DNA of 64,000 nucleotides from contig WPIO01000033.1 in assembly GCA_009760855.2 (NCBI GenBank), positions 2,084,501 through 2,148,500 on the forward strand, read 5' to 3'. The position numbers and the translations under genes were made by a program. Within the stretch, counting starts at the first letter, position 1; each line of letters begins with the position of its first letter. Source of the DNA: Cristatella mucedo. Its lineage: Eukaryota; Bryozoa; Phylactolaemata; Cristatellidae. Below are positions 4,201-63,426 of this stretch, piece after piece. A model generated the notes under the pieces. That model ran no database searches. It was not told the DNA's origin and saw nothing but the letters and a program-made list of their open reading frames with translations.

Positions 4201-7200
4201 GTACTTGGTCGAGGCAAGCACCTTAACATTGGGCCAAACCAGCTAGGCTATTTTTGCGTCAAGTGAATGTAGCTTGTTGCTTGCCACCTGTGCCAGACGC
4301 CCATTGTTTAGGGGGTAAGACCAATCGGTGTTATGGGCTCATCTTGTCAAGGACAAGTGTAGTTTAAGGCTTAATTTTTTAGAGTTGATTTAACAGCCTC
4401 TTTTTGTATAGTGTCAGAACAGCCTTAAAGGCGGTCACCACCGCTTGCAGCGGCAATAAAGGATTGCCCACCACGAGATTCGAACCCACAATCTTGGGAC
4501 CGGAGTCGTGAAAAGCAACCGCCTTACCTAGTGAGCCATCGCCTTTGCATTCACGTATGTCTTCTCAAGTACAGCTGTTGGGGCTTGTTTCGGCATGTAA
4601 ACTGTGCTGCATTGTTTGAATTCGGTGATTGTGACCCTCTGTCATCGTTACGATTATCCTCATGTGCTGACTAGTGGCATCTTGTACTTTAATGAGTATG
4701 GCCTGTGTGTAGACACGTTTTGAAGCCAGTTAAGCCAGTGCAGGCTGGTAGTCAGTTCACAGAAGTACTCAGTTTCCGGCATAAGCAGACGGCTACTCAA
4801 GTCCCGCTGCATTGCTGGTTCACATTGATAGACCGATGCCCCCCAATTAGCCTTCTAGTCGAAGTCTTGCTAGATAAATGGTTCAAACTATGGCATACGA
4901 CAAGCCTGATGAGTCGTTTTTGCATTGATGCTGATTTGATGTCGGTGCACTCCAACGTCTGTTCACCCTACATCTGCTTTACTTCCCTCCATAATTGCAG
5001 TTGCCTTCATGACCCAGGCCAACTTCCGGGACCCGCTACTCCATGCTGTTTGTTTCATTCTCAACAGACCATTCCTGAGTATGCTGGTCTGTTCAATATT
5101 AGTTAAGACAGAGTACTCGGTTCTTTTGTTGAGCTCCCTACCTTGCATGCATGTGAAGGCTTCGCCCTTAGCTTGTAAGGCCAAGCTTGCCTCAATGAGT
5201 CTGGTTGTGCCACGAGTTAGCTGGTCAGCCGGTGAAGCCATGAAGTGTGGTTGTCTGCTCGATAATCGTGCAGCCTGACTCAGAGGAAGGTCACCAAGGA
5301 TTGTTCTGAAGCTATCAGCGTGCCGAGGCATTGTGGCCGGTCACTTTTTCCTCTTCAACGATGGTCTAGCTTTCCTTAAGTCAGTGCAGAGGTTCGTATA
5401 AAGCCTACCTACTTCCACTATTTCTTGAAGCCACCAAAGTGCTCATTTCTTCTTTCAAGATCTCGAGTGAAAGCAATGTTGACGAGCTGCAGGCCCACTC
5501 GAATTTTTGAGTCATTCTGTACAAAGGCCTGTTGGGATAATTCATCATTCGACGAAATCACCCATGGCTCTAAGGCTGAATAGTGAGACCTCAAGCGAAC
5601 ATCCAGGCTTGGCAGCCTGACGTGCCACTACTGTCTCATTTCAAACTTGTATCGTCGTAAGCACTCAGTGCTTTAGAATACTGTACCTTTCATGGAGACG
5701 GCTGCTTTCTGTATGAGTGCTCAGTGCATGCAGCAGCCTGCCATAGGCATCGTGTTCGTGACAACTTGTTGTGCAGGCTAGTCTTTATCGAGCAATTCAC
5801 GCAACGAACCCCTATAGTGCAGTTTCTTTCTTGACACTGGGTCTAGCTGTCTTTCAATTCTTTCCACTTCCTTCGTCGGGATGATTGCTACTGCTGTCCT
5901 GGCTGGGCTTTCCGTGTGAGTTGCATGGTGCTTTACCTTTCAGCCAATCCCGGCCAGGCTGTTTACCAGTAGTGTGACAGTCACTCAGTCACCTACGCTC
6001 ATGCCTCCTCTCACCAGTGGATCGGTTGCAGCAAGTGCTGCCATCACCGCTTCTGGCACGGTGACTAGCAATGAGGGCACCGCTCTAGCTAGCAGCGCTG
6101 TGTCGGTGCCGAGCTCGGTGGAGCCACAGAGCTCTGCTCAGCTCAGCTCTGTGCTGGTCGCCGCAGTCTCCTCGACGACGGCAGCTTCACCGAGCTCCGA
6201 GGAGCTGAGGGGTGGCGCCACAGCCACTCAGCTGTCACTGGGTTCTGAGCCGAGTAATAGTAGCGGTGCAGCCGTGACGGCTGGCAGCCCAGCCGCAGCC
6301 GGGAGGGCTGCCATGGAGACACCCAGCTCGAGCAGTTCTGCCGCTGCTGAGACCACGATCAGCACCTGGACGAGCAGCACTTCGACTGGGGCTAGATCGG
6401 AGGGTCGAACGACAGAGGTGGGAAGCTTTACCTCACCGAAAGCCATGTCCGAACTTACCCTGGCATCGGCAACAAATAGGGTAGCAGCAGTGCATCGTAT
6501 GCAGGAACAGTGGATGTGTCATCAGCAGGAACGGTTGGTGTTTCGTCAATGGCTATAGGGGGAACAGAGGGCACTGCCATATCGACGCCAGCTTCTAGCA
6601 TTGAGAGCATGCCAGCTCGTGGCACAGCCGTTGGCGGAACTGATACAGACACATCCACCTTGGCTAGTTTTGCTGAAGCTGTTTTAACGAATGTGACCAG
6701 TTAGGCCTTCAGTAGTGCATCGATTGCAGCAGAAGGCTCAAGGGATCAGACGATATGAATGCAGAGCGATACGTCACTGGCAACCACAATGGGGTCTTCC
6801 TTTATATCGCTTCCATCTGCTGGGAACAGCCAGAAAACAGTGGGCTTATCGCAGTATGCAACCCTGCAGAACTGAGGGAGAAGCTGCCTTCATGTTGGTG
6901 CCTGCAGTCAGCAAGGCAAGCACACCGGCTCCCTTCACGTCACGTCAGTAGTGGGCAGCAGTGCCACAATTACATCCAGCTTTGTTAGTTCTGCAACCCT
7001 GCAGAACATGGCAAGTATGACCTTGGGCCTCACCTCTACCGAGGCAGTCAACGAGGGTAAAACGATGTAGACAGGTACTTCTGCCGTGCCGACAACTGCC
7101 ACTTGGATTAACTTTAACATCATCAGCATCTGCTAGAAGCAGTCACGGAACATCGGGCCTATTGTCAACTAGCAGTCTTGCAGCTATGGGTGTGTGCGCA

Positions 7201-63426: not shown

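Follow-up and report, generated by a model that had tools for sequence, protein, structure and literature searches.

Two MUC4-type heads in tandem in a candidate membrane mucin gene of Cristatella mucedo

A 24-kb unit is repeated in tandem

The window, a 64,000-nucleotide stretch of Cristatella mucedo DNA (C266:2084501-2148500), carries a mucin gene on its + strand within which self-comparison revealed a unit of ~24 kb repeated in tandem (Table 1). The longest self-match, of 10,289 aligned bases at 99.4% identity (23288-33566 versus 47299-57575), spans the unit junction and confirms the two units reported in the initial annotation of this DNA. The repeat between units A and B is far beyond chance expectation, and the A/B and B/C junctions print identically. 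In the middle of the units, similarity between A and B drops to blocks of 85-95%. In this assembly, both the tandem unit and the two open heads are genuine.

Unit B is followed by a decayed third unit, C, which is 99.1% like B up to 57575 (2.8 kb) and keeps two Ser/Thr exons intact. After these first 2.8 kb, four pieces of the unit's end alone remain (57642-60448, 85-90%), so unit C has no head. Across the first 2.8 kb, 49 alignment columns set A apart from the other two copies (46 of these fall in the first 600), and 17 and 14 columns are private to B and C, respectively; this patchwork of differences points to exchange between copies. A search of 30 kb upstream and 10 kb downstream turned up no further unit, the matches there reaching at most 275 bases at 76-92%. 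Intronic open frames at 13340-14770 resemble, by reading alone, fragments of LINE-type reverse transcriptases, with related matches at 38446-38906 and 45798-46258.

Table 1. Features of the locus in window coordinates.
Feature	Position	Strand	Basis or remark
Ser/Thr-rich mucin-like exon candidate	2142-2798	+	41% Ser+Thr; acceptor 2.5, donor 3.6; phase 1-1
Unit A	7134-30745	+	self-comparison
Unit A Ser/Thr linker	ST1 7960-8037, ST2 9714-9824, ST3 9915-10025	+	phase 1-1 each
Head A (11 exons)	11181-21383	+	exon model, Pfam
Head A NIDO exons	11181-11314, 15408-15583, 15733-15895, 17589-17808	+
Head A AMOP-like exons	17917-18170, 18312-18561	+	assigned through paralogue alone
Head A VWD exons	18758-19000, 19806-19972, 20176-20419	+
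GDPH codons, VWD of head A	18769-18780	+
Head A C8-3 exon	20564-20785	+
Head A post-VWD exon	20952-21383	+
Unit A EGF exons (EGF1-EGF7)	23272-23433, 23988-24107, 24374-24508, 25770-25886, 25987-26124, 28918-29172, 30050-30448	+
Possible read-through last exon after A	30449-30612	+	open to 30507, AATAAA 30607-30612; putative
Unit B	30746-54754	+	self-comparison
Unit B Ser/Thr linker	31562-31639, 33314-33424, 33515-33625	+
Head B (34781-45094), exons 1-6 of 11	34781-34914, 39559-39734, 39884-40046, 41639-41858, 41967-42220, 42365-42614	+	exon model, Pfam
Head B, exons 7-11 of 11	42811-43053, 43516-43682, 43887-44130, 44275-44496, 44663-45094	+	exon model, Pfam
GDPH codons, VWD of head B	42822-42833	+
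Unit B truncated EGF1	47299-47444	+	5' part lost
Unit B EGF2-EGF7	48001-48120, 48387-48521, 49782-49898, 50000-50137, 52923-53177, 54055-54453	+
Decayed third unit C	54755-60448	+	self-comparison; start resembles B, then remnants of the unit's end
Intact Ser/Thr exons in unit C	55571-55648, 57322-57432	+
SEA-like exons	61599-61758, 62301-62473	+	SEA by reading alone
EGF + transmembrane + tail exon	63063-63466	+	ends in stop

Exons and domains of the two units

Exons were picked by eye, with splice sites scored by generic matrices. Unit A comprises 21 exons (three Ser/Thr, four NIDO, two AMOP-like, three VWD, one C8-3, one post-VWD and seven EGF), 20 of which map to unit B with the same length and phase, EGF1 being the exception. 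Joined to the two Ser/Thr exons of unit C, the two SEA-like exons and the EGF-transmembrane exon, units A and B form a chain of 46 exons and 3008 codons with one stop. Joins at module edges are phase 1 throughout this chain, as had been proposed, and the previously listed exon edges (30050-30448, 31562, 34781, 54453, 55571, 61599 and 63063) were reproduced. Low-scoring acceptors in the model are those at 20952 (-0.7), 63063 (0.1), 20176 (0.3), and 28918 and 62301 (0.5). A better-scoring donor for the second VWD exon, at 19934 (score 5.9), was rejected in favour of 19972 because its phase does not agree with that of the following exon. The phase pattern also lends itself to another reading, in which A and B would be alternative cassettes of one gene and each protein would have one head, since with all module edges in phase 1 the frame survives skipping either unit; a unit of about 20 exons would, however, be large for a mutually exclusive choice, and we consider this highly unlikely.

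In both spliced heads, Pfam recognized NIDO (2.4e-19 in A, 1.3e-20 in B) and VWD (3.3e-17 in A; 2.9e-15 in B, where the match is in two pieces), the latter followed by C8-3_MUC4 (1.5e-10 in A, 6.8e-11 in B). The NIDO and VWD domains originally described for both copies are thereby upheld; the AMOP domain described alongside them gave no Pfam match in head A or B at E values up to 10, and a whole-genome AMOP search returned three matches (on C33 and C687), with the window absent. The region is AMOP-like, perhaps a divergent AMOP, as judged through a paralogue on contig C430: it has 31% identity to its C430 counterpart, with cysteines in common, and the C430 stretch covers positions 3-132 of the 143 in the AMOP profile at 0.032 and 14.8 bits, against a cut-off of 25 bits. 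On C33, two AMOP matches 2 kb apart (C33:1078514-1080752) overlap in profile range: one covers 14-85 and contains two stops, the other covers 45-143. They may represent a doubled AMOP or one that is split. EGF_CA was matched in the open frame of the last A EGF exon and in B's EGF2, and EGF_2 fell slightly below the cut-off in the 63063 exon; the membrane-proximal exons gave no Pfam match to SEA.

The EGF arrays had likewise been taken to match. EGF2-EGF7 do so in length and phase, and these six exons are identical between A and B over 1164 bases, but B's EGF1 is broken. The near-identical tract opens inside this exon, at 47299, and no usable acceptor was found for it: both right-phase acceptors in 46900-47330 meet a stop. 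As a phase 1-1 exon it could be skipped with the frame intact, which leaves the EGF started in the post-VWD exon without its last part.

Related heads elsewhere in the genome

Genome searches covered 572,011,866 bases in 688 contigs. Among the best candidates scored, C8-3_MUC4 was matched at least nine times (twice each on C266, C332 and C550, once each on C430, C177 and C33), and NIDO gave at least 12 exon matches, on the same contigs and on C670. The C430 paralogue (C430:1,849-1,876 kb) shares with the window gene the order NIDO, AMOP-like, VWD, C8-3, post-VWD and EGF1 to EGF7-like, but has a longer EGF array and, in the 50 kb examined, one head; the whole contig yielded one NIDO and one C8-3 match among the best candidates scored. 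Within the assembly the post-VWD exon is matched twice, each time in this locus, and the last EGF exon three times, with two matches full and identical and one an 84% partial match in unit C; with neither exon was a second copy of the locus found elsewhere.

Pairs of MUC4-type heads on the same strand also occur on C550 (about 844-936 kb, 82 kb apart) and C332 (about 5392-5511 kb, 104 kb apart), and may be tandem genes or further two-headed genes. The 20 kb past one C550 head contains EGF frames together with a pair of hydrophobic frames composed of Val-Cys simple repeats; the tail of that gene would thus lie beyond the 20 kb examined.

Both heads keep open frames

Across 2505 bases (835 codons), heads A and B show 115 base differences and 72 residue differences, and neither head contains a stop. 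In simulations that put all changes on A, stops averaged 4.0 and were absent in 1.7% of 5000 runs. Indels number 80 events in 6,983 aligned bases of middle introns versus two, both aligner-placed, in 2,370 exon bases, and exon lengths are equal throughout despite these two events. At the level of residues, constraint appears weak: dN/dS between the heads is 0.79, which does not support strong constraint, and the 72 residue changes are near the neutral expectation (79.8 in simulation, s.d. 4.7, with 6.3% of runs as low). All 16 cysteines are kept, an outcome that has a 23% chance in any case. The most diverged exon is C8-3, with 27 of 222 bases changed. The frames of both heads are thus held while their residues drift or diversify. 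N-glycosylation sequons number 26 in head B and 16 in head A, 14 of them common to both.

Substitutions amount to 4.7% in middle exons, 7.6% in middle introns and 0.26% in 3' introns. This distribution bears on whether the assembly joined two haplotypes of a one-head gene head to tail. False duplications of this sort are documented (PMC9516828), and because both matches of the post-VWD exon lie here there is no separate allele to compare. However, the window is free of N and lies on a 4.48-Mb contig, the similarity is patchy, with the 3' introns far closer than the middle ones, and a decayed third unit adjoins in which B and C share differences from A. An artefact of this kind is therefore very unlikely in our estimation.

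The ends of the gene

The initial annotation gave 7135..63426 for the two modules; the start of the gene lies left of the window, and the gene probably spans ~70.7 kb of the + strand, from C266:2,077,244 to about 2,147,966. A signal-peptide-like exon whose donor is in phase 1 is found at window -7256 to -7169 (L004:2744-2831), judged by hydropathy and donor rather than by a trained predictor, and a second candidate at -13796. Upstream of the window there is also a mucin repeat with a 69-base (23-residue) unit present in 25.0 copies within an open 909-residue frame, and a second Ser/Thr-rich mucin exon (L004:6925-9471); given this repeat region, the gene must begin beyond the left edge of the window. 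The mucin repeat region and the second Ser/Thr-rich frame together occupy L004:3171-9479. The 5' model is not closed, because the best donor of the repeat exon is in phase 2 whereas the mucin exon that follows has phase-1 entry.

In a first scan for signal peptides, the 32 kb between -29900 and 2100 yielded two candidates, and 30449-34781 and 7134-11181 yielded none. Relaxed thresholds added two weak frames in 30449-34781 (32323 and 33427) and one in 7134-11181. Such frames between the heads, together with the C550 and C332 pairs, which are perhaps neighbouring genes, would suit two adjacent genes here with separate starts and ends. Yet no candidate appeared between the heads at the first thresholds, the weak frames have hydropathies of 2.28 and 2.01 versus 2.74 for the upstream exon, and the sole phase-1-entry transmembrane-like frame between the heads in the wide scan described below (32269) reaches 2.29 versus 3.22 for the 63063 exon. 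Two neighbouring genes are, of the alternatives weighed here, the most improbable.

The 63063 exon, previously given as the only transmembrane exon, does hold the strongest segment (mean hydropathy 3.22, with an EGF in front), although its acceptor (0.1) fails the score of 1.0 required in the first transmembrane scan. A wide scan of 7134-63100 (acceptor -3) returned 12 other hydrophobic frames with phase-1 entry, up to 3.13, so that its claim to be the only one does not stand as it was put. All 12 fall, in our judgement, in stretches taken as intron; ten besides the between-head frame are inside the units, in partly simple sequence. A donor at 63324 might divert the tail of the EGF-transmembrane exon.

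The statement that no terminal exon separates the heads proved too strong. Read-through of the 30448 donor would meet a stop after about 20 residues, the frame being open to 30507, and poly(A) addition at the AATAAA at 30607 would then yield a secreted single-headed mucin, with a two-headed form minor or absent. An ATTAAA follows at 30657, and both signals recur in the matching region of B (AATAAA at 54612 and ATTAAA at 54666). Against this alternative 3' end, the 30448 donor is sound (score 4.6), and AATAAA has 24 + strand matches in the window (0.375 per kb), so one close to 30448 could be chance; after the matching exon of C430, moreover, 730 bases contain neither AATAAA nor ATTAAA. We regard such an end as unlikely.

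Interpretation

The explanation we favour, at a probability of roughly 60%, is that an intragenic tandem duplication produced one two-headed, MUC4-like membrane mucin. It is favoured because a signal-peptide-like exon and mucin repeats lie 5', and an EGF-transmembrane exon 3', of both heads, and because one coherent frame runs through both heads, with both frames kept; that the post-VWD and last EGF exons have no copies outside this locus also speaks for it. Weighing against it are the weak constraint on residues, the broken EGF1 of B, the weak splice sites, the open 5' model, the two weak signal-peptide-like frames between the heads and the possible last exon after A. The two-headed membrane mucin of the initial annotation is therefore retained as the best fit to frame and flanking exons, and qualified by B's EGF1 and the possible alternative 3' end. 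From the open, phase-coherent chain, we infer a single transcript through both heads; a role as a surface barrier or adhesion mucin is likewise what we infer for the product.

On this two-headed reading, a 24-kb block encoding the Ser/Thr linker, NIDO, AMOP-like, VWD, C8-3 and the EGF array would have been duplicated in tandem by unequal crossing-over, units A and B staying coding while the third copy decayed. The predicted protein would run from a signal peptide through a long O-glycosylated repeat arm to head A with its EGF stalk and a linker, and then through head B with its EGF stalk and a linker to a SEA-like region, an EGF, a transmembrane segment and a tail. Recent exchange or conversion would hold the EGF part near-identical as the heads diverge. 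GDPH, the putative site of MUC4 self-cleavage, is kept in both VWD domains, so each head could be cleaved once, which would divide the product into three pieces.

MUC4 is described as comprising tandem repeats, NIDO, AMOP, VWD, an EGF-like part and a transmembrane segment, and as putatively cut at GDPH within VWD (PMC8660890). Sea anemone mucin4-like proteins carry NIDO, AMOP and VWD and, in some, a C-terminal SEA (PMC9080433), and a Corallium paper shows NIDO, AMOP and VWD in its figure legends (PMC7853314). The window gene shares with the MUC4 and mucin4-like proteins mucin repeats, NIDO, VWD with GDPH, C8-3_MUC4, EGF and a transmembrane segment in the same order, but differs in the two complete heads of the model, the divergent, AMOP-like region and the long EGF arrays; its SEA-like region resembles a SEA domain by reading, without a Pfam match.

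SUSD2 and Mesh have the order NIDO-AMOP-VWD-Sushi-TM. They resemble the window gene in combining NIDO, VWD and a transmembrane segment in one protein; unlike them, it has mucin repeats and EGF arrays and no Sushi reported in its spliced heads. The Pfam tables contain no Sushi match, in scans of exons other than EGF4-EGF6 and the A copies of EGF2 and EGF3.

The literature compared describes a single MUC4-type head per protein, from which serial heads would differ. Searches of the open-licence literature found no two-headed protein, and neither 'two NIDO domains' nor 'two AMOP domains' occurred as a phrase in the papers listed; protein databases such as UniProt and InterPro may have a two-headed entry. 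If the two-headed reading is true, a MUC4-type head can be used in series, with a whole head repeated in frame, and the gene offers a natural experiment on the function of the head and its GDPH site. With its identical stalk exons and drifting heads, it would also be a good example of exchange within a coding gene.

More tentatively, and with the odds against it, the gene may exemplify a serial-head mucin with a GDPH site per head and a three-piece chain, in which head number shifts by unequal crossing-over within one gene (formerly three units, at present two coding), exchange homogenises the stalks as the heads drift or diversify, and head number differs among individuals or species. The decayed third unit in this one assembly suggests that unit number may vary.

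Homeobox-like sequences may form another tandem array in the same genome. Of 24 matches to a homeodomain probe, the top four, located on two contigs, had identities of 93, 90, 86 and 84%; they mark clear Hox-type genes and, most likely, a bilaterian. What looks like a tandem homeobox array lies at C74:126406-155234 (five matches) and C566:10645-15612 (two), with equal scores and a spacing of roughly 4.5-14.5 kb.
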